Positions 28,210 through 44,134 of a stretch of 49,261 nt of DNA are shown here, in pieces. How positions within the stretch are numbered: the stretch's first letter is position 1; the number at the start of each line of letters is the position of its first letter. Position numbers and translations under genes: made by a program. The notes under the pieces were generated by a model. It searched no databases. It was not told the origin of the DNA and saw nothing but the letters and a program-made list of their open reading frames with translations. Where the stretch lies: assembly GCA_938010715.1 (NCBI GenBank), contig CALLVG010000040.1, positions 1 to 49,261 of the forward strand. Direction: 5' to 3'. Source of the DNA: an uncultured Saprospiraceae bacterium (GTDB lineage Bacteria; Bacteroidota; Bacteroidia; Chitinophagales; Saprospiraceae).

Positions 28210-29169
28210 TTACAATAAATAGAATACTAAGAAAACGAATACCCAAACCAAATCGACAAAGTGCCAGTAAAGGCCAATTTTTTCAACCATTTCGTATCCA
28301 TTCTTTCTTTTTTCGTAAACACCGCTCATCACGTTGAGCATGATGATTATCAAAAATACTACTCCAGAGAAAACGTGGAATCCGTGGAAACCAGTGATAA
28401 AGAAGAAAAGCCCTCCAAATGCTCTTGGACCGCGTGACTCAGACATTACTTTACCAGCGTTTTCACCCTCTGTTACCTTATACTTTTTGAGTACAAATCC
28501 GCCATTATCAACTGAATAACCAGCATAATCACCTGGGGTTGTCTCGTAATGAGGCCCTTCGTGACCATCACCGTGATGTGCACCACCTGCGGCCATGTGT
28601 AACAAATAGCCTTGGCCTGGTTTGAAAACATCTGTCGATTCAGTACCGTCTGCATTTAGATAAACACCTTTTTCCGTGTGAGTACCGAATGGATTGTCGG
28701 TCATTGTCATATTCTCGGTCCAAATTAGGTTAGACCATTCCCATGCTTGACATCCAAGAAATCCAGCTCCACCAATAATCGTCAAAAACATCCAAAATGC
28801 TACTCCGTCCTTATTTTCTCTATGACCTTCCTGTACCGCACGGACCATTGTCACAGAACTCAAGATCAATAAAAACGACATGAAGGTTACGAAAATTAAA
28901 GGTAAAGGAACATCGTGTCCTAATCCTAAGTTATTGAAGGGAGCTGTACTAAAAACTGAATCTGGAACAGGCCAAGATGGAGACATTACTCTCAGAGTAC
29001 CATACGCAATCAGAAAACCTGCAAAAGTAAATGCATCAGAAACTAAGAAGTACCACATCATCAATTTACCATAACTCGCTCTCCACGGTTCATTACCACC
29101 ATTCCAATCGGTTGTTTCGTTGTGGTGGCCGTCATGATCAACTGAATGGTCTAAAGTATCGGTTGCCAT
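28210..29169 (-). CDS. ctaE: Cytochrome c oxidase subunit III, with large insertion
   Basis: A 319-residue subunit III. Helices are at about 34-57, 88-110, 124-142, 250-280 and 300-318. YWHFVDLVWVFVF at the C-terminus and FGGLFFFITGFHGFHVF are family signatures. Between helices 3 and 4 an insertion of about 100 residues (151-247) is Gly/His-rich (YLLHMAAGGAHHGDGHEG). The N-terminus is also His-rich (DHSVDHDGHHNETTDW). The protein is therefore longer than typical five-helix subunits (about 200 residues). A second, shorter subunit III gene lies upstream. Confidence 0.92.
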   Translation of the reverse strand: MATDTLDHSVDHDGHHNETTDWNGGNEPWRASYGKLMMWYFLVSDAFTFAGFLIAYGTLRVMSPSWPVPDSVFSTAPFNNLGLGHDVPLPLIFVTFMSFLLILSSVTMVRAVQEGHRENKDGVAFWMFLTIIGGAGFLGCQAWEWSNLIWTENMTMTDNPFGTHTEKGVYLNADGTESTDVFKPGQGYLLHMAAGGAHHGDGHEGPHYETTPGDYAGYSVDNGGFVLKKYKVTEGENAGKVMSESRGPRAFGGLFFFITGFHGFHVFSGVVFLIIIMLNVMSGVYEKRKNGYEMVEKIGLYWHFVDLVWVFVFLVFYLL

Positions 29170-29280: not shown

Positions 29281-29853
29281 TTATTGAAAAATCATGAAGC
29301 ATAAAAGGTATATCCAAAGGATATCTACAAAATGCCAATAAATCAATGTTAATTGAAAACGGGTTTTTCGCTTATCCGTTACTTTGAATTTTAAACCAAA
29401 AGCGTGAACCAATGCCATTATCAATGTTGCAATTCCGCCCAATACGTGCGCTGCATGTAATCCTGAAATCGCATAGACAAATGAACCAGATGGATTTCCA
29501 TCCAAAAAGACGCCCATGGCGTTCAAGTCCATCCATCCCATATATTGAGTTACTAAAAATAGTACTCCTAAAATGCTCCCAATTATCAAAAGCAACTTGT
29601 ACATTTTCTCATTTCCGTTTTTGAAAGAAATGTATGAGAAGTGTAAAACGATGCTACTTGCCACCATCACAGCTGCACTTATAAAGAAGATGGTTGGCAT
29701 AGAAAATTCTAACCAGTTTCCAGCGGCATGTCTTACCACATACGCACTGGTCAATGATGCGAACATCATCAAGATACTCGCACATCCTGCCAAAAGTGCG
29801 AATATCCACGGGTGAATTTTATTTCTTCTATTATTTGAAACGGTCAAGTCCAT
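29281..29853 (-). CDS. Second heme-copper oxidase subunit III
   Basis: A 190-residue five-helix subunit III: HPWIFALLAGCASILMMFAS, FFISAAVMVASSIVLHFSYI, LLIIGSILGVLFLVTQYMGW, YAISGLHAAHVLGGIATLIM and the end YWHFVDILWIYLLCFMIFQ. It is a paralogue of the longer subunit III downstream; paired subunit III genes are common in Bacteroidota caa3-type operons. It starts four bases after the ctaB stop. Confidence 0.9.
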   Translation of the reverse strand: MDLTVSNNRRNKIHPWIFALLAGCASILMMFASLTSAYVVRHAAGNWLEFSMPTIFFISAAVMVASSIVLHFSYISFKNGNEKMYKLLLIIGSILGVLFLVTQYMGWMDLNAMGVFLDGNPSGSFVYAISGLHAAHVLGGIATLIMALVHAFGLKFKVTDKRKTRFQLTLIYWHFVDILWIYLLCFMIFQ

Positions 29854-32789: not shown

Positions 32790-34361
32790 TTATTGAACCG
32801 CTGGTGCTGCTGCAGCCTCCGTTGTAGCAGCTTTCTCTGTTTCAACTCCTCCCAATATTTGAAGCTCTGTTCTGCGGTTGTTTTTACGACCTTCCGCAGT
32901 GTCATTGGTATCAATTGGTCGATTTGGACCATACCCTACAGCGGTTAGGTTTTCACTTGAAACTCCTTTTCCAACCAAAAAGTTGTAAACTGCCTCTGCC
33001 CTGCTCTGTGATAATGTCATGTTTGATTTCAACTCACCTTGACTATCTGTGTGACCTGCCAATTCCAACTTTACAGAAGGATTCTTTTTCATAAAGTCAA
33101 CGACATTGTTTAACTCATATTTAGAAATATCTTCTAATGTTGAGCCGCCTGAAACAAAGTTGACATAATCTAACCTTATTATTTTATCAGCAGGGTTCGT
33201 TTCAGCCATCGCTGTTGCGACCTTTTCATCAAATTCTGATTTTCTCATACCAATCAATGCGTTTTGCATTTCTTCTGAAAGTGATGAAAATTCAGCAGTG
33301 TAAGGATCATCTGTTGTTCCTTTTATTGTTCCTTCGTAATAAGAAGTTTGTTTTTTCAACCAAGCGTTATACTCATCTTCTTCAACAATTTTCACGATCC
33401 TTTTCATGGAGTAGTGACCGCTTCCGCACAATTCAGCACAAGCCAACTCATATTCGAATGTTTCCCAAAGTTTTGGGCCATCAGGGTCGTTCTTGTCGGA
33501 TGGTTGTTGATATTCTGGCGTCTCTTTCAATTTAGCTCTGTATTCCTCTGTTGTTAAAACAGGCGTGAATACAAAGTGTGTTGGAATCCCAGGTACTGCA
33601 TCCATTTTCACACGAAAGTGTGGTAAATCAAAATTGTGTAATACATCACGTGAAGTGATACGAACTCTTACTTTTTTACCTTTCGGTAAAACAATTTCTA
33701 GAGGATGTGTATCATCCAAATTTTTGACATCCGTCCAATCTTGCCCCATTGGGTTAGATGAATTGATGTTTGTGTAATACTTTGAGCCCAATTTCCCATC
33801 TGGGCCAGGATAGCGTATCAACCATGCGAATTGCATACCAGTCGCCTCGATCTCTATATAATCTTCTCCTGGTTCTACGTCTGCCATTACTTCATTCCAT
33901 GCATCTAATCCACCCATTACTAAGAAGGTCATTACGACTGCTGGAATTGCAGTCCAAATAATTTCCAATTTTGTATCGTGTGCTTGGAAGTAAACTTTTC
34001 TCCCTGGTTTTCCGCTGTATTTCCACGCAAAATAGAAGAGTAAAATGTGCGTAAGAACGAAAACAATTCCAGTAATAATCAACGTGACATTGAAAATATT
34101 ATCCAATGCATATCCGTGAGCAGAAGCAGAATCATGAGGTCCATAACCCAACATCCAATTTCGGAAATAAAACGCAGACCATGACGTCAGAATAAAAAAG
34201 AAGAAACCAAAAACTAACCAAAGACGGCCATTGGCCTTGTTGCTCTTGATTTGTGTCTTTTCTTCACCATTGATTTTTGAGGACAACTCGGTTACTTTAC
34301 CGATTTGAACAATTACAACCGTTGCAAGAAATAAGCACAAAAAGATGATCAAACCTGTCAT
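32790..34361 (-). CDS. ctaC: Cytochrome c oxidase subunit II fused to an OmpA peptidoglycan-binding domain
   Basis: A 523-residue protein. Four N-terminal helices (about 3-20, 47-66, 88-113, 133-150), two more than normal, precede the periplasmic cupredoxin domain. All CuA ligands are present: His242 in VLHNFDLP, and C308-x-E-x-C312-x3-H316-x2-M319 in CAELCGSGHYSMK. From about 395 to 505 a complete OmpA_C domain follows: LDYVNFVSGGSTLEDIS, LAGHTDSQGELKSNM with the Asp, LSQSRAEAVYNFL with the Arg that bind diaminopimelate in OmpA, and GRKNNRRTEL. An Ala/Glu tail ends it. The frame is continuous. Both domains are periplasmic, so the fusion is topologically sensible and may tether the oxidase to the cell wall. 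Confidence 0.94.
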   Translation of the reverse strand: MTGLIIFLCLFLATVVIVQIGKVTELSSKINGEEKTQIKSNKANGRLWLVFGFFFFILTSWSAFYFRNWMLGYGPHDSASAHGYALDNIFNVTLIITGIVFVLTHILLFYFAWKYSGKPGRKVYFQAHDTKLEIIWTAIPAVVMTFLVMGGLDAWNEVMADVEPGEDYIEIEATGMQFAWLIRYPGPDGKLGSKYYTNINSSNPMGQDWTDVKNLDDTHPLEIVLPKGKKVRVRITSRDVLHNFDLPHFRVKMDAVPGIPTHFVFTPVLTTEEYRAKLKETPEYQQPSDKNDPDGPKLWETFEYELACAELCGSGHYSMKRIVKIVEEDEYNAWLKKQTSYYEGTIKGTTDDPYTAEFSSLSEEMQNALIGMRKSEFDEKVATAMAETNPADKIIRLDYVNFVSGGSTLEDISKYELNNVVDFMKKNPSVKLELAGHTDSQGELKSNMTLSQSRAEAVYNFLVGKGVSSENLTAVGYGPNRPIDTNDTAEGRKNNRRTELQILGGVETEKAATTEAAAAPAVQ

Positions 34362-34442: not shown

Positions 34443-35756
34443 TTAAGTATGGTGCGTTACACTCTCCATCATGTAAGGGTCGTTTACTGGTTGTAATTTC
34501 GCGCTCGCCAAACGAGAGAAAAACACAAATAAAAACAATCCTAAAAAACCTAAGAAAGTGCCTAACTCCAAGAACCCAGGCATTGTAAATCCAGAAACAA
34601 ACTCTGTAGCATGCTCTACTGCATGTCCACCGTGGTCTGCTGCGTGTCCATGGCCTTCATGTCCGTGGTCTGCATGTGCTGCATGCTCTTTGGCGGTTTT
34701 AAGGATACCCGGCTTCAACATCAAAAACATATCAATCCAATGACCAAAAATCAAAATGACGGATACGAAAATTAAAGTACCATATTTTCTCTTGGTGTCA
34801 TTTCTCATTAACACAAAAAATGGTACTAAAAAGTTGATAATTAGGTTCGCATAAAAAAGAACAGGAAAACTATCTAATCGTTCACGGAAATAGATGGTTT
34901 CCTCCCCTACGTTTCCGTACCAAATCAACATATACTGACTGAACCAACAATATGTCCAGAATACACTGAAACCAAACATATATTTACCTAAATCATGAAG
35001 GTGTTCTTTGGTTACATTTTCCAACATTCCCTTCTTTTTCAAGTAGATGATTGTCAAAATGGTGAATGCACAGAAGCATACAAACCATCCTGCCATATTG
35101 TACCAAGCAAACAAAGTACTGTACCAATGTGCATCAACTGACATGATAAATAACCAAACCATTGCTGGAATCGTAAAGCCAGCTATTGGTAAAAAACCAG
35201 CTGACCAAATTCTCATTTTCTGATGAAACGAGTGATCCAGTGCACCTCCGTTTTTATCTTCTGCGATAGAAAGATTTCTAATCATACGAGCGAATATGTA
35301 CCATACACCGACTGCTCCTGCTCCCAAAAAGGTAAAAACACCTTTATTTAGAAATGCTGATTTTCCAACTAAAATCTCATCATAGTTTGGACTTTCAGGA
35401 TCCAATGTGGATAAATCTGCCCAGTGGTACAAATGGTGCGCATGCGCCCACAAGCCTCCTGCTACGACTAAAAGCAAAATAAAACCAGTTAGCAAGAACA
35501 AGGAGTAAGCTTCAAAAAGCCTTTTGATAGTCGCGAACCAACCAGCCCATGCACTAATGAATGCGGTTAATGCAAACAATGCCATAGCGGAAATCCCAGT
35601 AAAGAAGACTGAGTTATGAAGAATATTTGACCAAAAACGTACGTGATCTGGTTGTGAGTCCATGACGAAAGTCAGTGCTAAACAAATAACGCCAACGACC
35701 ATGAATCCAATTGTCATCGTTTTTAATCTGCCATCAAATGAGAAAGTATTATCCAT
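34443..35756 (-). CDS. actF: Alternative complex III subunit ActF (NrfD-like quinone-binding subunit 2)
   Basis: A 437-residue membrane protein with about ten helices, including LKTMTIGFMVVGVICLALTF, FAWYNMAGWFVCFCAFTILT and NLIINFLVPFFVLMRNDTKR. It belongs to the NrfD/PsrC fold and is the second quinol-site subunit type of the alternative complex III. Near the C-terminus a His-rich periplasmic or cytoplasmic loop (about 350-386: HAAHADHGHEGHGHAADHGG) precedes the last helix. It lies between actE and ctaC in the operon. Confidence 0.93.
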   Translation of the reverse strand: MDNTFSFDGRLKTMTIGFMVVGVICLALTFVMDSQPDHVRFWSNILHNSVFFTGISAMALFALTAFISAWAGWFATIKRLFEAYSLFLLTGFILLLVVAGGLWAHAHHLYHWADLSTLDPESPNYDEILVGKSAFLNKGVFTFLGAGAVGVWYIFARMIRNLSIAEDKNGGALDHSFHQKMRIWSAGFLPIAGFTIPAMVWLFIMSVDAHWYSTLFAWYNMAGWFVCFCAFTILTIIYLKKKGMLENVTKEHLHDLGKYMFGFSVFWTYCWFSQYMLIWYGNVGEETIYFRERLDSFPVLFYANLIINFLVPFFVLMRNDTKRKYGTLIFVSVILIFGHWIDMFLMLKPGILKTAKEHAAHADHGHEGHGHAADHGGHAVEHATEFVSGFTMPGFLELGTFLGFLGLFLFVFFSRLASAKLQPVNDPYMMESVTHHT

Positions 35757-35797: not shown

Positions 35798-36730
35798 TTA
35801 GTGACTGTGGTCATCTTTGTGGCCATCGTCTCCGTGGTGATGCTCTTCTGTTCCACCCTCGTGTCCATGGTCACTTTCATGTCCTGCATCGTGGCTATGT
35901 CCATCATCGTGAGAATGATCTCCACCCGAATGATGTGCTCCACCATGTGCTTCATGTGTAACGACTTCTGTTACCTTAGGCGCTACGCTGCCACCAACTT
36001 TTGCACCTGCACCAAATGTATTTTCAAGATTGTTATAAGCCAATCCTTTTTCTTTTGCTTGCAAAGAGCGGATGTAATGAATTACATTCCATCTTTCTTC
36101 ATAGCTCAATTTGTCTGCGTATCCTCCCATCACATTTTTACCGTGCATGATAGCGTGGTAATACCTTCCATTCGTTGCATTGACATGTTCATCCAATAGG
36201 AAGTTTGCAGGAGCTGCTGGATACACTTGATTAGGATTTTTTTCATCAACTAACCAGCCGTTTCCATCAATCTTTTCGCCGTGACAAATTGCACAATTGA
36301 TATTGTATAATAACTCCCCAGACTCTAAACCTGCAGCAGTAATCGGAACTGGGTTGCTAATAATTTCAGCCATCGCACGTGTTCTCTCTTCTTCGGTATC
36401 TGCATAATAATATGGTACACTTCCACTTTCTGGAATTTTAATACCATATCCATTTTTGTGATTTGAGGTAGAACCTGCACTTCCACGAGGAACGGTTCCT
36501 TTTACAGGGAGACGTGCTTTTTCTAATGATTCACGTGTTCTGACACTTGTTTCATCAAAAGTATTCATCCAATAGCCACTTCTTACGTTTGCTTCATAAG
36601 CGACCGAGTGTGCCATATCAGGAACAAACTCGCTTCCTGTTTGATTACCATCTGCTGTTTGACATGCTCCCAAAGAAAGCATAGCAAAAGCTGCGATGAT
36701 AACCCAAATTTTTATATCAAATATTTTCAT
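35798..36730 (-). CDS. actE: Alternative complex III subunit ActE (monoheme cytochrome c lipoprotein)
   Basis: A 310-residue lipoprotein (lipobox SLGAC, Cys23). A single heme c motif CAICH at about 146-150 (NINCAICHGEKIDGNGW) and a likely axial Met in GKNVMGGYADKL near 195 mark the cytochrome domain. It accepts electrons from ActA and passes them on to the oxidase. The last 55 residues form a His/Asp/Gly-rich tail (HSGGDHSHDDGHSHDAGH and further) with about 17 His, unusual for this subunit and possibly metal-binding. Confidence 0.94.
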   Translation of the reverse strand: MKIFDIKIWVIIAAFAMLSLGACQTADGNQTGSEFVPDMAHSVAYEANVRSGYWMNTFDETSVRTRESLEKARLPVKGTVPRGSAGSTSNHKNGYGIKIPESGSVPYYYADTEEERTRAMAEIISNPVPITAAGLESGELLYNINCAICHGEKIDGNGWLVDEKNPNQVYPAAPANFLLDEHVNATNGRYYHAIMHGKNVMGGYADKLSYEERWNVIHYIRSLQAKEKGLAYNNLENTFGAGAKVGGSVAPKVTEVVTHEAHGGAHHSGGDHSHDDGHSHDAGHESDHGHEGGTEEHHHGDDGHKDDHSH

Positions 36731-36779: not shown

Positions 36780-37316
36780 TTATTTAGAGAGTGTCTTGGC
36801 ATTAACCTCAAACGGTCTTGTTGAATTTAAAAAAGACTTTAAATCACTCACTTCTCCGTCACTTTTTCCATTTGTTGAAAAAGCCAAACAAAACTTATCA
36901 TCCGTGATACGATCATCTAAGGTCTCGTTGTTAACTCCAGGCCCTAAACCACAAACTGTATAAAAAGAAACCACCATCCCAATCGCACAGAACAATACGG
37001 TCAACTCAAAAGTAATTGGAATAAATGCAGGTACGGACCAGTATGGTTTACCACCAAAAATGATAGGCCAGTCTCTTGTAAAAATCCAACTCATCGACAA
37101 AAATGCAGTCAAAGTTCCCAATGCACCGAAAATGAATCCTACGATGTGCAAACGAGATTCTTCAAACTCCATAATTGGATCCAATCCGTGACCTGGAAAA
37201 GGAGTAAAAACATCCATGATATCTAAGTGCTTCGCTTTTGCTGCTTTGATAGCTGCAAACAACTCTGTCTCATCGTTGTATAAAGCGTAAAGAACTTCTT
37301 TTTTTCCTGATGCCAT
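36780..37316 (-). CDS. actD: Alternative complex III subunit ActD (DUF3341)
   Basis: A 178-residue protein. A soluble N-terminal part (EVLYALYNDETELFAAIKAA) is followed by two helices (LHIVGFIFGALGTLTAFLSM and FIPITFELTVLFCAIGMVVS). This is the DUF3341 pattern of ActD, a structural membrane subunit of the complex. FTPFPGHGLDPIMEF is a conserved block. It lies 50 bases downstream of actE's... neighbour actC and upstream of actE. Confidence 0.93.
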   Translation of the reverse strand: MASGKKEVLYALYNDETELFAAIKAAKAKHLDIMDVFTPFPGHGLDPIMEFEESRLHIVGFIFGALGTLTAFLSMSWIFTRDWPIIFGGKPYWSVPAFIPITFELTVLFCAIGMVVSFYTVCGLGPGVNNETLDDRITDDKFCLAFSTNGKSDGEVSDLKSFLNSTRPFEVNAKTLSK

Positions 37317-37372: not shown

Positions 37373-39298
37373 TTATTTACCTCCGTCTAATTCGTCTTGC
37401 CACTTTTTCAACTCATCCCATTTGCCAGCGGCAGCTAAACCTGCTTGCTTTGGCCAAGTACCAGGTACTTTTGATGCAAATCGAGGACCCGCTGCTACCA
37501 AAATTTCTTTGATAGAAGCAACGTCTGTTTCTGAAAGTTTAGCAAAAGTTTTGATTCCTGCTGCTTTCAACAATTCCTCAATCTTAGGGCCAATTCCTTC
37601 TACTTTTTTCAAATCATCTTCTAAACTTCCTGTAGAACCAGTCGAAGTTGAACCTGTATTTGAAACTGCTCCTGTTGCGCCGATAATGGCAGCACCAGAT
37701 GCAGTAGGTGTATCTAAATCCAATTTTGATGAAGTATCTTTAGAACCAGTTGTACCTTTAGAAGTTATGGTTGTTTTGGTTGAAGATGTTGCGGTTGAAC
37801 TTGAACTCAATGGCGTAATTCCACTTGAACCAGAAGTTCTGCCTCCTGTTTCAACTTTCTTTGGTGCATCATGTCCGTGGTCATGTCCACCGTGACCATC
37901 GTGCCCATCAGGACCGTGATGATGAACAGCGTTTTCACCAACGTATTGGTCTCCACCTGTTTTCAAAATATGCTTAATCTCTGCAACTGCAACAACGGGT
38001 GCTACTCTACAGAAAATCAAATACAAGGTTCCAAATAGTCCCATTGAACCAGCGAAGATTCCGATTTCAACCCAACTTGGTGCGTAGTATGACCAACTTG
38101 AAGGCAAGTAATCACGCGCTAATGTCGTTGCAATAATCACGTAACGCTCGAACCACATACCGATGTTGATAAAGATTGACATCAAGAATGTAACCCAAAG
38201 GTTTCTTCTCATTTTCTTCCACCAGAAAATCTGTGGAGAAACTAAGTTACAGAACATCATCCCGAAGTATGACCACCAATAAGGACCAGCTGCTCTGTTT
38301 AAGAATGCAAATTGCTCATATACATATCCAGAATACCAAGCGATGAACAACTCCGTCAGATAAGCTGACCCCACCAAAGTACCTGTCAAAAGGATTACTT
38401 TATTCATTGACTCGATGTGTGCCAATGTGATGTAGTCCTGCAAATTCAAAATCTTTCTGGTTATCAACATCAAGGTCTGAACCATCGCAAAACCGGAGAA
38501 AATCGCTCCTGCTACGAAGTAAGGAGGAAAAATCGTCGTATGCCATCCAGGAATAACTGAAGTGGCGAAATCAAATGATACGATCGTGTGTACAGAAAGT
38601 ACCAAAGGTGTAGCAATACCTGCCAAAATCAAGGAAAGCGATTCCCAACGTTGCCAGTGCTTTGCACTACCTGTCCAACCAAATGAAAGTGCGTTATATA
38701 CTTTTCTTCTCAATCCAGTTGCTCTATCTCTTACTGTTGCAAAATCAGGAACCAAACCAGTGTACCAGAATAATAATGATACGGTGAAGTAAGTTGAGAT
38801 TGCAAAAATATCCCAGAGCAAAGGTGAGTTAAAGTTCACCCATAATGGTCCTCTTGTATTTGGATAAGGGAACATGAAGAAGTCGAACCAAGGACGACCT
38901 GTGTGTGTCGCAGGGAAAATACCCGCACACATTACAGCGAAAATCGTCATCGCCTCTGCTGCACGGTTTACTCCCGTACGCCATTTTTGACGGAACAACA
39001 GAAGAATCGCCGAAATCAATGTGCCGGCGTGACCAATTCCAATCCACCATACAAAGTTGGTGATATCATATCCCCAACCGATAGTACGATTCAAATTCCA
39101 TGCACCGATTCCATGCCAAAATGTCCATACTAAGCTGAATGCCATAACACTCAAAAGTGCGACACAACAGATCAAAGCAATCACCCATGAAGTTGGTGGC
39201 GTCTTTTCAGTTGGCCCTATCAGATCTTCAGTAATCTGGTGATAGGTTTTATGTCCGGTAATTAATGGTTCCCTAATTGTTGATACAGGAGCACTCAT
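37373..39298 (-). CDS. actC: Alternative complex III subunit ActC with helix-hairpin-helix tail
   Basis: A 641-residue protein. Residues 1-450 are the NrfD-like ten-helix quinol-binding subunit (GIGHAGTLISAILLLFRQKW, PATHTGRPWFDFFMFPYP, MWFERYVIIATTLARDYLPS). After the last helix comes a His-rich stretch (458-478: HHHGPDGHDGHGGHDHGHD), then a Ser/Thr/Gly low-complexity linker (about 488-557), then a C-terminal domain (559-641) with LKKVEGIGPKIEELLKAAGI and a closing GKWDELKKWQDELDGG. This last part is a helix-hairpin-helix-type domain also seen fused to unrelated proteins in Bacteroidota. The tail is not needed for the known function, so its role is open. Confidence 0.94.
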   Translation of the reverse strand: MSAPVSTIREPLITGHKTYHQITEDLIGPTEKTPPTSWVIALICCVALLSVMAFSLVWTFWHGIGAWNLNRTIGWGYDITNFVWWIGIGHAGTLISAILLLFRQKWRTGVNRAAEAMTIFAVMCAGIFPATHTGRPWFDFFMFPYPNTRGPLWVNFNSPLLWDIFAISTYFTVSLLFWYTGLVPDFATVRDRATGLRRKVYNALSFGWTGSAKHWQRWESLSLILAGIATPLVLSVHTIVSFDFATSVIPGWHTTIFPPYFVAGAIFSGFAMVQTLMLITRKILNLQDYITLAHIESMNKVILLTGTLVGSAYLTELFIAWYSGYVYEQFAFLNRAAGPYWWSYFGMMFCNLVSPQIFWWKKMRRNLWVTFLMSIFINIGMWFERYVIIATTLARDYLPSSWSYYAPSWVEIGIFAGSMGLFGTLYLIFCRVAPVVAVAEIKHILKTGGDQYVGENAVHHHGPDGHDGHGGHDHGHDAPKKVETGGRTSGSSGITPLSSSSTATSSTKTTITSKGTTGSKDTSSKLDLDTPTASGAAIIGATGAVSNTGSTSTGSTGSLEDDLKKVEGIGPKIEELLKAAGIKTFAKLSETDVASIKEILVAAGPRFASKVPGTWPKQAGLAAAGKWDELKKWQDELDGGK

Positions 39299-39347: not shown

Positions 39348-42300
39348 TTAGACGAGGTCTTCGTCTCTATTCACAATCTTAGCAGTATAAGTTACAGAAG
39401 AACGAACATCCACCTCTTCCAATAAGATGTAGTTCAATGGATTCTGTAATTTCTTATCTAATTCTCCGCCTTTATTATTCGTATCACCGAAAGTAATCGC
39501 GCCAGTTGGGCAAGCTGTTTGACAAGCTGTTCTCACATCTTCGTCCATCAACTTGCGACCTTCTTTTTTCGCGGTAAGCTTACCTTCTTGTAATCTTTGA
39601 ACACAGAATGAACATTTTTCCATCACCCCACGTGAACGAACCGTTACGTCTGGGTTCAAGACCATTCTGGTTAAGTTATCAGTCATGTAGTATGCGTTGT
39701 CTGTTCCTCCATCTCTGTGGTGGTTCAAATCCACCTCATTTGATGCAAACAAATCAGCTGCAGTGTAATCCATCCAGTTAAAACGACGTACTTTGAAAGG
39801 ACAGTTATTTGCACAATACCGCGTTCCGATACATCTGTTATAAGCCATTTGGTTCAACCCTTCGCTGCTGTGATTGGTTGCAGATACTGGACAAACATTC
39901 TCACAAGGAGCATTATCACAGTGCTGACACATCAATGGTTGATATACAACATTTGGATTTTCAAAATCACCAAAGAAGTAACGGTCGATTCTCAACCAAG
40001 TCATTTCGTGGTGTCTGAAAACTTCGTGTTTTCCTACAATCGGAACATTATTTTCTGACATACAAGCTACCGTACATGCTGAACAACCTGTACAGGCATT
40101 CAAATCAACATGCATTCCCCAGTGATGACCTTGGTCATACACATCTTCTTTATATTGCTCGTATGGATAAAGTGTTTGTTGATTTAAATGCTCGTGATGC
40201 GCGCGCTCATGGTGCAAATCATCTGCAAAAGTTGATAAATCTTTCAAATTTGCTTGACGCAAAACAGTACGTTTGGTCAAACCACCTTGGAAACCTTCAC
40301 CAACTGTCATCAATGTTTTTTCATCTACATTGATTTCTTCACCAGAAGCAGGATCTACATCCGTCACTCCCATTGTGTGGTGATATTGAACACAGGCAAA
40401 CTCTTTATCAACCGCTCCCTTAGCAATTGAATCTAAAGTTGCATAATAAACGGTATTACCGTTTTTATCTGTTCCTAACCAAGGGTTAACATTTGTTCCA
40501 ACTTCAATTCCAGCTGGGCCAGCAACATTTCTACCATATCCCATTGCTAATGAATAAGTATCTGCTGCTAAACCAAATTGTCTAACACATGTGATACTTG
40601 CTCCTGAGCCTTTCACGGAGATATCCGCTTTATCTGCTTCACCGTAGATTTCTGAATTATTTAAATCTAAATCATTGGTTACTTCGTTTCCTCCATCCCA
40701 ACTTACTGGTACTGCTAAGTAGTTACCCCAAACGCATCTTGTAATCGGATCTGGTAACTCTTGTAACCATGGGTTGTTGGCATATTGCCCAGCGCCCATA
40801 TTTACAGTTTCAAAGAAAGCAATTTCTTTTCCGCTTTTCGGCTTGTTGATATTTGCCATTGCTGCTGATGCACTTCCAGCGAAAGCAGGTGCAGAGGCAG
40901 GAATATCCATTTGATAAACACCGTCATGCAACATCTTATCCCAGAATGAACGGAAAGACAAGAAAGAAGATTGATTCGCAAATAATCCGCTTTCCCAAGT
41001 GCTTCTTAAGAAATCATAAGCAGCAGTATCTTTATCTTTTACAGGAGCTCCTGCCCAACTCAACAATGAAACCTCTGCTTGACGGGTGTTAAACAAAGGA
41101 GCAATCGTTGGTTGAATTAAACTATAGTGTCCACGTTTTGGATTAGCGTCTCCCCAACTTTCCAAGTAATGGTTGGTTGGTGCGATGTAGTTACAAAGTG
41201 CGCCTGTTTCGTTCATTGTTTGACCGCAGTAAACTTTCGTTTTCACTTTGGCCATTCCAGCAGTAAACTTATCGGTGTTTGGAATATCGAAAGCAGGATT
41301 AGCGCCGTCCATTACGATTACTGTTCCAACACTTCCACTATTCATTTCAGCGATTAATTGCTGAATTTCTTTATCTGTTCCTTGTCTTTGCAAAGAAGCA
41401 TTTCCGAAATCGAGTGTATTTCCGTAGTTCCCTAAAAGACTATTGATGGCATTTACTAAAATCTGCTCACCAACATTATTAGAACCACTTACGACCAAAC
41501 TCTTTCCAGCATTTGCTTTTAGTTTAGAAGCTACTTTTGTTATTGCTGCTTTTGCTTTTGCATTGATTGAAGGTGCAGAAACACCACCACCTAAAGCTTG
41601 TAATAAAGTAGCAATTGCTGCTCCTTGCTCAGATGGTTTGATTAAAATTCTATTATCTGAATTAGAACCGGTCAAAGACATGTGTGACTCCACTTGTACG
41701 TGGTGAGACATCTTTGCGTTCTTTGTTGTGCTGACTTTTCTATTTTTTGCGTATTGATTAGCATATTCGATTGGAGAAATCCAAGTTCCTAAGAAATCAG
41801 CTCCAAAACTTACGATTACATTCGCTTTATCAAAGTGATAATCTGGAATCACTTTATCACCAAATGACTGCTCATTCGCTTCCAAAATCGCTGAAGAAGA
41901 GATTGGGTCATAGGTCACCACTTTAGTTCCAGGGTGCTTTGCCGCAAATGCTTGTATCGCTTTTTTGGTCATTGGACTCATTACCGTATTTGTGACAATT
42001 CTCACATTACCAGTAATTAGCCTTGCCATTGCTGCATCCAATTCTTCCCAAGTTGATTTTATCTTAACTCCGCCTTCAACTTTACTTGGACCTTGAATTC
42101 TATTTTTATCATAAAGACTTAAAACACTCGCTTGCGCTCTTGCACTTGTTCCTCCATTGGTCATTTTGGAACTCGTGTTCCCTTCAATCTTGATGGGTCT
42201 TCCTTCACGGGTTTTTACCAAAATAGGACAGTAATCACCACCTTGAACAAAACTGGAAGCATAGTAAGTAGCGACACCAGGTACGATTGAATCGGGCTTT

Positions 42301-42551
42301 ATTACGTAAGGAATTGCCTTTTTTACTGGAATATCACAACCTGCAGCAACCGTTGCTGCACCTAATCCAAATCCAAGATATTTCAAGAAGTCACGACGAT
42401 TGGCAGATACACCAGAATCAGCCAAATCAGCAGTCATTTCTGCAACTGATGACTTTTCTTCAAACTCTTGTGATGCCAATTTTCGAAACTCTGGGTGGTT
42501 GTTTAATTCTGCGGTTCCTACCCAGACTTTATTTTGCTTATGGTCTTTCAT
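39348..42551 (-). CDS. actB: Alternative complex III subunit ActB (molybdopterin-like/iron-sulfur protein)
   Basis: A 1067-residue protein. The twin-arginine-like signal is at 51-72 (NRRDFLKYLGFGLGAATVAA, Arg52-Arg53). A molybdopterin oxidoreductase-like domain (about 75-740) follows, in the known complexes without cofactor. A ferredoxin-like domain (about 780-1000) has CTGCSACTVACMSENNVP, CQHCDNAPCENVCP, CIGTRYCANNCPFKVRRF and CSFCVQRL...CQTACPTGAI. In the third motif Thr replaces one Cys, which fits three [4Fe-4S] and one [3Fe-4S] cluster. It carries electrons between quinol site and hemes on the periplasmic side. A dyad hairpin precedes it in the operon. Confidence 0.95.
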   Translation of the reverse strand: MKDHKQNKVWVGTAELNNHPEFRKLASQEFEEKSSVAEMTADLADSGVSANRRDFLKYLGFGLGAATVAAGCDIPVKKAIPYVIKPDSIVPGVATYYASSFVQGGDYCPILVKTREGRPIKIEGNTSSKMTNGGTSARAQASVLSLYDKNRIQGPSKVEGGVKIKSTWEELDAAMARLITGNVRIVTNTVMSPMTKKAIQAFAAKHPGTKVVTYDPISSSAILEANEQSFGDKVIPDYHFDKANVIVSFGADFLGTWISPIEYANQYAKNRKVSTTKNAKMSHHVQVESHMSLTGSNSDNRILIKPSEQGAAIATLLQALGGGVSAPSINAKAKAAITKVASKLKANAGKSLVVSGSNNVGEQILVNAINSLLGNYGNTLDFGNASLQRQGTDKEIQQLIAEMNSGSVGTVIVMDGANPAFDIPNTDKFTAGMAKVKTKVYCGQTMNETGALCNYIAPTNHYLESWGDANPKRGHYSLIQPTIAPLFNTRQAEVSLLSWAGAPVKDKDTAAYDFLRSTWESGLFANQSSFLSFRSFWDKMLHDGVYQMDIPASAPAFAGSASAAMANINKPKSGKEIAFFETVNMGAGQYANNPWLQELPDPITRCVWGNYLAVPVSWDGGNEVTNDLDLNNSEIYGEADKADISVKGSGASITCVRQFGLAADTYSLAMGYGRNVAGPAGIEVGTNVNPWLGTDKNGNTVYYATLDSIAKGAVDKEFACVQYHHTMGVTDVDPASGEEINVDEKTLMTVGEGFQGGLTKRTVLRQANLKDLSTFADDLHHERAHHEHLNQQTLYPYEQYKEDVYDQGHHWGMHVDLNACTGCSACTVACMSENNVPIVGKHEVFRHHEMTWLRIDRYFFGDFENPNVVYQPLMCQHCDNAPCENVCPVSATNHSSEGLNQMAYNRCIGTRYCANNCPFKVRRFNWMDYTAADLFASNEVDLNHHRDGGTDNAYYMTDNLTRMVLNPDVTVRSRGVMEKCSFCVQRLQEGKLTAKKEGRKLMDEDVRTACQTACPTGAITFGDTNNKGGELDKKLQNPLNYILLEEVDVRSSVTYTAKIVNRDEDLV

Positions 42552-42665: not shown

Positions 42666-44105
42666 TTAATAGTGACACTTCTGACATCCCAAACCTCCAA
42701 TATCCTCTACGGTCACTTTATCACGAGAGCCTTCTTTGATTTCTTTGTGGTATTTCTCGTAATAGTTATCGTAATAATCATTGTCAGCGAACTGAACTTC
42801 TGTTTTTCTATGGCAATTGATACACCATCCCATTGAGAGTGGCGTGTGTTGCTGAACAATTTCCATTTCCTCCACTTTACCGTGACATTGTTGACATTCA
42901 ACTTTACCAACTGTTACGTGCTGTGCGTGGTTAAAATAAACGTGGTCAGGTAAATTGTGGATTCTTACCCACTCAATCGGACCCGCTACACTTTCATCAT
43001 TAGGACCAGTTAAAGAAGAAACAATTCCATTCCACTGTTCTGCAACAACTTCTTCAACATTACCTTTTGCTTCACTCTTTACGTGCGTATCAGCAATCCA
43101 TTTTGAGAAAATCTTTTCGATTTCATCATTGGACATATTTTCGTAACCGTCTATATATTTGTCTGTGGAAGGATCGTAACCGATTGAAGCATAAATTTTA
43201 GAAATCTCAGCTGTTCCATATTTAGAACCCACCTTCACTGCCTTGTGACAATTCATGCAAGTGTTTGCCGCAGGAATCACGGAGTGTTTACTTCTTCTTG
43301 CACCATCATGACAATATTGACAGTCAATCTGCTGCATTCCAGCATGTGTTTTGTGTGAAAACTTAATTGGTTGTTCAGGAGCATAATTGTGTTGACGACC
43401 TAAGTTAATCGCCTTATTCACAGTGTAATATCCACCAAAAACGATACCTGCAAAAATCAAGAAACCCATGACTCCTCCTCCTGTCAATATGTCCACCATG
43501 CTCTTCTTCCGAGCGCTTCCAGGGTTTTCTTTGTTTTTACTGATATAATCTAACTGAGAGATGAACCGTGCTAAAATCAAGGCCAATAGTCCTAAAACTA
43601 ATGCTAATCCCATATAAAGCCATGTGTAATCCGTTTCGGCTGCAACACCTGCAGTTGCACCAGCGGTATCGCCGCCTATCTTTGGAACACAGCTACCATC
43701 TGCCATACAATTGATGTAAGCAAAAACGTGTTCAATCTCTTCGTTGGAAAGTCCCACGTTGTTCATCACATTTGGCTTCCATTCGTTCCAAAGCTCAACT
43801 GCACGTGGATGACCTGCATTCACCATTGCTTGCGAATTGCGAATCCATGAGTATAAATCTTCTCTTGGATAGTCCGCCCATCTTTCTTCAAAACCACCCA
43901 ATGCAGGGCCAGTCATGTCATCCTTCATGTTTTTATTGTGACAACTCGCACAATTGTTTTTGAAGAGACCTTTTCCAATTTTATCATCGCCACCCTGAGC
44001 AGAAAGAGAGATGGCAAAAAATGTGAGCGCAAAGAGTAGCGTGATGCGGCTCAGATATTCTTTTAACACCAGCGATTTAGGTGTACGATTCCCGATTAAT
44101 TTCAT
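42666..44105 (-). CDS. actA: Alternative complex III subunit ActA (multiheme cytochrome c)
   Basis: A 479-residue protein from the ATG at 44105. The open frame reaches 44129, but that codon is inside the -7 element. A signal segment (ITLLFALTFFAISLSAQ) is followed by an N-terminal cytochrome c domain (CASCH, TGPALGG, ending near residue 145), two membrane segments (TWLYMGLALVLGLLALILA and VMGFLIFAGIVFGGYYTV) and a pentaheme domain with CQYCH, CMNCH, CQQCH, CINCH and CQKCH. That gives six CxxCH motifs, one more than the pentaheme ActA described from Rhodothermus. It takes electrons from ActB. It is the first gene of the 12-gene operon. Confidence 0.94.
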   Translation of the reverse strand: MKLIGNRTPKSLVLKEYLSRITLLFALTFFAISLSAQGGDDKIGKGLFKNNCASCHNKNMKDDMTGPALGGFEERWADYPREDLYSWIRNSQAMVNAGHPRAVELWNEWKPNVMNNVGLSNEEIEHVFAYINCMADGSCVPKIGGDTAGATAGVAAETDYTWLYMGLALVLGLLALILARFISQLDYISKNKENPGSARKKSMVDILTGGGVMGFLIFAGIVFGGYYTVNKAINLGRQHNYAPEQPIKFSHKTHAGMQQIDCQYCHDGARRSKHSVIPAANTCMNCHKAVKVGSKYGTAEISKIYASIGYDPSTDKYIDGYENMSNDEIEKIFSKWIADTHVKSEAKGNVEEVVAEQWNGIVSSLTGPNDESVAGPIEWVRIHNLPDHVYFNHAQHVTVGKVECQQCHGKVEEMEIVQQHTPLSMGWCINCHRKTEVQFADNDYYDNYYEKYHKEIKEGSRDKVTVEDIGGLGCQKCHY

Positions 44106-44126
44106 ACGGATTTGCAAATTTTGGCG

Positions 44127-44134
44127 CAAAGATA
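44127..44134 (-). promoter_or_regulatory. Respiratory operon promoter, -7 element
   Basis: TATCTTTG followed by C on the minus strand is a perfect TAnnTTTGC, 21 bases upstream of the actA ATG at 44105. It is the only good promoter match in front of the operon. Confidence 0.65.

Follow-up and report, generated by a model that had tools for sequence, protein, structure and literature searches.

An OmpA-type domain carried by either COX2 or ActE in act–aa3 operons of one order of Bacteroidota: a probable wall mooring for a respiratory supercomplex

Results

A COX2–OmpA fusion in an act–aa3 operon

In one order of Bacteroidota, an OmpA peptidoglycan-binding-type domain is borne by one or the other of two redox proteins of the same respiratory operon, oxidase subunit II (COX2) or the cytochrome ActE, and these sequences suggest that the domain probably serves as a peptidoglycan-binding mooring through which the ACIII-aa3 supercomplex would bind the wall and be tethered to it. 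The window, that is, the whole stretch of DNA analysed here, comprises 49,261 nt of an uncultured Saprospiraceae bacterium (GCA_938010715.1, contig CALLVG010000040.1, positions 1–49,261, forward strand). Its COX2–OmpA fusion gene (32790..34361, minus strand, as are all features of the window given below) is a single ATG-started frame of 523 aa with 0 internal stops.

Three Pfam domains are matched in the fusion protein, all above their gathering cut-offs: COX2_TM (PF02790) at residues 76–148 (4.6e-9; 33918..34136), COX2 (PF00116) at residues 171–259 (6.2e-11) and OmpA (PF00691, positions 2–98 of 98) at residues 402–496 (1.2e-19; 32874..33158), while TIGR02866 CoxB scores 126 bits, under its curated 147.7. 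The periplasmic CuA domain spans residues 169–326 (33384..33857), with model strands from residue 169, and includes His242 and the ligand motif C308-x-E-x-C312-x3-H316-x2-M319 (33405..33440). An alignment of 31 sequences shows no variation at H242, C308, E310, C312, H316, or M319, and the CxExCxxxHxxM motif is present in 81 of 82 fused frames, a count in which a genome may appear more than once; the L163 (G230) protein reads CNKLCGSGHYNM at this site, with Lys for the usual Glu (CNKLC). The OmpA domain retains the pocket residues D439 (33045–33047), the Asp of GHTD, and R454 (33000–33002), the Arg of LSQSRA. The sequence-only reading of this DNA, which had described an uninterrupted frame joining a full CuA subunit to a complete OmpA domain, is thus borne out, with the ligands of CuA and the Asp and Arg of the pocket at the places that it gave and its OmpA range of 32847–33179 corresponding to residues 395–505.

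Two N-terminal hydrophobic helices (residues 2–65; 34167..34358) are indicated by hydropathy peaks at 3–21 and 47–65 and by helices 2–31 and 33–65 of the AlphaFold2 model. They had been singled out as extra; however, they are ordinary for this COX2 subfamily and do not belong to the fusion, since unfused relatives have them as well, and matches from the order and the class mostly start at query residues 1–11, with a few at 36–53.

That an assembly or binning artefact has joined two genes, as one might suspect in a draft of 314 contigs that is 76.6% complete, is practically impossible: the same fused frame is present at 90% identity in G004 and at 51–69% in other relatives, in separately titled records. 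This recurrence rules out the artefact.

The gene lies in a cluster of the order actA-B-C-D-E-F, COX2, COX1, CtaB-like, two COX3-like genes, and COX4, in which act is joined to the aa3 genes. Upstream are ActA, a multihaem cytochrome c (42666..44129), an ActB-like subunit with visible Cys clusters (39348..42551), ActC of the NrfD family (37373..39298), an ActD-like subunit (36780..37316), ActE, a monohaem cytochrome c that has a His-rich tail and is free of an OmpA domain (35798..36730), and an ActF-like membrane subunit of ACIII that has no Pfam match (34443..35756). ActB, ActD, and ActF are presumed identities, named by place and by the usual gene order of act operons. Downstream are COX1, oxidase subunit I (PF00115; 30851..32725), a CtaB-like UbiA-family prenyltransferase (PF01040; 29858..30757), the first (29281..29853) and second (28210..29169) copies of a COX3-like subunit (PF00510), and the COX4_pro subunit IV (PF03626; 27724..28152).

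Additionally, we observed that ActC carries a C-terminal HHH_5-like stretch that matches slightly under the cut-off (26.4 vs 27 bits), as does the L108 ActC. ActC frames of at least 560 aa occur in 8 of the 64 regions with ActC from family f1 (by our inference Saprospiraceae, the window's family), making this a second variable tail of the operon. His-rich runs, possibly metal-binding, are found in ActE, ActF, and ActC of the window; that of ActE forms the end of the protein, where the OmpA domain sits in other genomes.

Predicted structure and linker of the fusion protein

The AlphaFold2 model, computed from 31 sequences, has a mean pLDDT of 75 and a pTM of 0.63. The pLDDT is 80–93 per block in the OmpA part, 89–90 in a linker helix at residues 363–386, and 51–76 in the membrane part, and the model is poor around the CuA site (pLDDT <50 at 239–256 and 310–317). 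Foldseek aligns the OmpA part to Capnocytophaga OmpA (5wtp_B) with a TMt of 0.82 and an rmsd of 1.1 Å over 104 columns, and, separately, finds many oxidase subunit II structures that match the model.

The linker from the CuA domain to the OmpA domain covers residues 327–400 (33162..33383), with the predicted helix at 33204–33275. The COX2 profile match and the start of the OmpA domain are 36–40 residues apart in 35 of 46 fusions (range 26–66), and the equivalent distance in 12 ActE fusions is 5–237. The presence of a linker allows the reading that the protein is a precursor, cleaved between its two periplasmic domains to release a separate periplasmic wall-binding protein; nothing further in favour of such cleavage was found, while the ordered helix predicted within the linker and the narrow spacing among homologues argue against it, and we judge it very improbable.

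Distribution of the fusion among relatives

A scan of GTDB genomes yielded 35 named loci, which are titled Saprospiraceae/Saprospirales, genera including Phaeodactylibacter, Haliscomenobacter, Lewinella, and Flavilitoribacter, Chitinophagales, Bacteroidia, or nothing more precise than Bacteroidota, with one Flavobacteriales; the OmpA domain lies inside the COX2 frame in 18 of them. Metagenome bins make up most of the records. A second set, partly overlapping these loci, contained 152 regions from other genomes, one per genome (69 from f1, 43 from other families of the order, and 40 from the class outside the order), and here 46 carry OmpA on COX2; the regions were chosen non-randomly, one draw favouring short COX2 frames and another long ones, so that these proportions are not prevalences. 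The f1 regions carry the domain on COX2 in 41 cases, on ActE in 8, and on neither in 20. For the other families of the order the counts are five on COX2 (f4 twice, f8, f18, and f19), four on ActE (f2 twice, f12 twice), and 34 on neither.

Runs of N affect two of these assignments. L156 (f12), counted as neither, has such a run parting ActE from OmpA and is probably an ActE fusion, and in the ActE fusion of L139 (f2) the run lies inside ActE at the place expected for the haem motif. In L136 (G063), the reading frames of COX2, ActF, ActC, and ActA are each broken into several pieces and that of ActD is short, through sequencing error or decay.

In the class outside the order, OmpA was found on an Act or Cox protein in 0 of 40 regions, including 0 of the 25 that have ActB together with complete ActE and COX2; L185 and L210 do have an OmpA ORF close by, but as a gene of its own. 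In a phylum-wide draw, 31 of 118 genomes gave matches at E 1e-30, and in just three of these does the match span the OmpA domain; all three belong to f1, and the genome of the window is among them.

COX2 and ActE as alternative carriers

The two fusions were not met together. Among 105 operons of the order in which both genes are complete, the window counted, 43 carry the domain on COX2, 12 on ActE, 50 on neither (L156 included), and 0 on both. Fisher's test gives p = 0.0011 for this exclusion when kinship is ignored and genomes are treated as independent; with only 4–6 independent ActE lineages, the chance of never meeting a COX2 fusion is 0.12–0.04. Carriage of the domain by ActE and by COX2 is thus likely, though not proven, to be mutually exclusive. 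ActE and COX2 are also the only operon proteins on which the domain was seen. Early in the sequence of 10 of the 12 ActE fusions there is a lipobox-like Cys, as found with a loose pattern.

An operon tree was built with FastTree from COX1, ActC, and ActB (138 rows), with L156 coded as ActE. It requires 27 changes for the three states, 6 for the ActE state, and 22 for the COX2 state, and the starred branches by themselves make 6 of the ActE changes and 14 of the COX2 changes unavoidable.

Origins of the OmpA domains

When the OmpA domain of the window was searched in the 12 ActE–OmpA genomes, the ActE-borne domain was the top match in 9, among 10–34 matches per genome; it was not the top match in G053, G025, and G185, and in 4 of the 9 top cases the margin was <4 bits. 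This pattern fits a single OmpA module that may have moved between carriers, though this would not be the whole story.

The COX2-borne domains of f8, f18, and f19 are 69–75% identical to a DUF937-TM-OmpA protein of the f1 genome L122, which is encoded beside an act operon (L122:18008–19243, minus strand). They are 73–78% identical to one another, whereas their COX2 parts are just 44–55% alike. A protein of the DUF937-TM-OmpA kind therefore likely gave its domain to COX2 in these three families, and a single origin of the COX2-borne domains was rejected on these grounds. Unfused members of the same families (G208, G140, and G179) gave no match to the DUF937-type OmpA at E 1e-30. With G174 as the query, the other two COX2 copies are 71–72% identical and the paralogue of its own genome 70%, near-equal values that do not distinguish parallel capture from lateral transfer.

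The f4 domains form a long branch of their own, read AHTDSDG, and are probably a third source. By these comparisons, two grafts of different OmpA domains onto COX2 are the minimum, and three are probable. No direction of swaps can be read from the tree of the OmpA domains themselves, which is based on 115 columns, leaves 29 of its 60 inner branches open, and has a bootstrap that did not settle.

Constraint, decay, and loss

The Asp/Arg pair is kept in all 47 COX2-borne and all 13 ActE-borne domains detected by the profile, and the three other OmpA ORFs all have it too; this 60/60 conservation is the weaker as evidence because the pair is common across the OmpA family and decayed domains escape the profile. 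By the Nei-Gojobori method, dN/dS of the OmpA part is 0.026 for the window vs L075 and 0.089 for L005 vs L010, at high dS values of 1.8 and 1.3, respectively, and dS is saturated in 3 of 5 fused pairs.

Decay was observed in a Haliscomenobacter-like clade, whose COX2 tail aligns to the fused set with an HHalign probability of 97.6 (E 3.6e-12, 27% identity). The GHTD Asp is missing in 6 of 6 rows from five genomes (L018, L022, L024, L027, L029, and L105, of which L027 and L105 count as one genome because their contigs have the same length, 41526), and dN/dS is 0.15–0.31, two of the three values coming from few changes. These decayed tails close with a hydrophobic stretch such as LLGAGLSL. Loss of the pocket in close relatives, which the sequence-only reading had named as a refutation of its proposal, thus occurs in this one clade of six rows; in the domains detected elsewhere both residues persist throughout. 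Loss of the whole domain is frequent among relatives, and the COX2 parts of the fused L005 and the unfused L016 are still 91% identical. Given the loss of the pocket in one clade and the many relatives without the domain, the tether, if real, is dispensable.

COX2 tails of another kind, about 110–150 residues long and apparently helical or linker-like, are found in an f1 clade (L112, L117, L118, and L120). Those of L112, L118, and L120 have no Pfam OmpA match and no further Pfam domain above cut-off; the tails of L117 and L119, both missed by the OmpA profile, were judged by eye.

Because loss is so frequent, the main rival explanation is that of a passenger domain, according to which abundant OmpA domains were grafted onto periplasmic C-termini, brought little benefit, and were lost again. 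Such a supply exists, since the 12 ActE–OmpA genomes hold 10–34 OmpA matches each and the window's genome 20, of which 18 are above cut-off; the 27 state changes of the operon tree, the raised dN/dS of the decayed clade, and the 50 of 105 complete operons that have neither fusion point the same way. However, a passenger accords poorly with the pocket residues kept in every detected domain (with the reservation made above on decayed ones), with the low dN/dS where it was estimable, with the confinement of the domain to ActE and COX2 among operon proteins, and with the narrow linker length in COX2. On balance we regard a passenger as unlikely.

Discussion

A proposed wall mooring

As a rule for these two families, the COX2 C-terminus faces the periplasm and OmpA_C domains bind diaminopimelate. 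In the mechanism that we favour, COX2 would be embedded in the inner membrane, its CuA domain and C-terminus projecting into the periplasm, a placement taken from knowledge of the family; the linker, with its predicted helix, would hold the OmpA domain off the membrane, and D439 and R454 would grip the diaminopimelate of the wall. In the A. baumannii OmpA, Asp271 and Arg286 bind diaminopimelate, as stated in excerpts of PMC5974059, and D439/R454 are their equivalents by motif. The anchor would be carried by COX2 in some lineages and by ActE in others, and either partner could bear it since ACIII and the oxidase would function as a single unit. The benefit would most likely be that respiratory complexes are fixed or clustered in place, or that the spacing from membrane to wall is set.

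The domain might instead bind a non-wall partner, such as an outer-membrane or periplasmic protein, or serve in assembly or dimerisation of the supercomplex. An alternative carrier is equally compatible with an assembly role and with a tether, and the OmpA C-like protein PA0833 is reported to be a dimer in solution (PMC5974059, excerpts); yet the same excerpts report that PA0833 binds peptidoglycan too, and a purely protein-binding role would not need the diaminopimelate-binding Asp/Arg pair that all 60 detected domains retain. We therefore consider a non-wall partner quite unlikely and retain the wall mooring as the preferred reading.

The earlier suggestion that the oxidase, and perhaps the whole supercomplex, is tethered to the wall stands in part: the kept pocket, the recurrence of the fusion, and the use of ActE as an alternative carrier speak for it, while the Asp lost in one clade and the many bare relatives speak against it. 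More tentatively, and at somewhat less than even confidence, one may go further and propose that in this order an interchangeable OmpA module anchors ACIII-aa3 to the wall via either redox subunit, that the wall fixes the site of respiration and maybe couples it to envelope growth, and that the growth benefit of ActE elsewhere is partly structural.

Respiratory complexes are usually viewed as freely diffusing in the inner membrane. If the mooring is real, the repeated joining of the domain to either partner would be evidence from nature that both complexes function as a unit and that keeping this unit in place pays off. It would also help, by comparison, to explain what ActE does.

Comparison with known systems

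Among the closest known systems is the ACIII-cytochrome aa3 supercomplex of F. johnsoniae (PDB 6BTM; PMC8552683), which resembles the window in that act lies beside the aa3 genes and ACIII feeds the oxidase, and which also has a monohaem, lipid-anchored ActE. There, ACIII was isolated together with aa3, and ActE is dispensable for electron transfer, yet beneficial for growth (PMC8552683, excerpts). Physical association of ACIII with an oxidase is reported in these excerpts for F. johnsoniae and R. marinus. The excerpts of PMC8552683 mention no OmpA domain on ActE or COX2, and their 11 occurrences of "OmpA", spread over six passages, concern a promoter, so that they were rejected as a prior description. 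In searches of open-licence PMC papers, neither a COX2–OmpA nor an ActE–OmpA fusion was found.

The caa3-type oxidases (PDB 2yev) also bear an extra domain on COX2. Their added domain, however, is a haem carrier, whereas the window protein contains no CxxCH, which rules out a cytochrome c fusion. Among 13 long COX2 frames from outside the order (L179–L191, 476–610 aa), none has OmpA and 11 have one CxxCH. A C-terminal caa3-like domain was rejected for the two that were checked, L185 and L187, in which the CxxCH is found close to the start of the protein, at residues 62 and 58. In L190 and L191, which have no CxxCH, the extra length is on the N-terminal side.

MotB belongs to an inner-membrane machine that is held by the wall. 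The OmpA_C, Pal, and MotB domains (5wtp; 3td3, A. baumannii Omp38) share the fold and the Asp/Arg pair with the window protein, whose carrier differs from theirs in being a redox-active subunit of a terminal oxidase. By analogy, the anatomy of the window protein would fit a wall tether of the MotB/Pal type.

The nearest precedent that we saw is the PsaB subunit of photosystem I in PDB 7f4v (chain aB, 872 aa; presumably from Gloeobacter violaceus), which has an OmpA-like match at residues 772–864. In both cases a core subunit of a membrane complex that converts energy ends in an OmpA-like domain, but PsaB belongs to a photosynthetic reaction centre. The excerpts of the open-licence PMC papers found describe no wall-binding tail on PsaB, and the precedent consists of the PDB match. 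Together, COX2 with an added domain, as in caa3, the widespread occurrence of OmpA domains, and the OmpA-like tail of PsaB were already known, and what is new here is an OmpA domain that appears to rove between COX2 and ActE of one operon.
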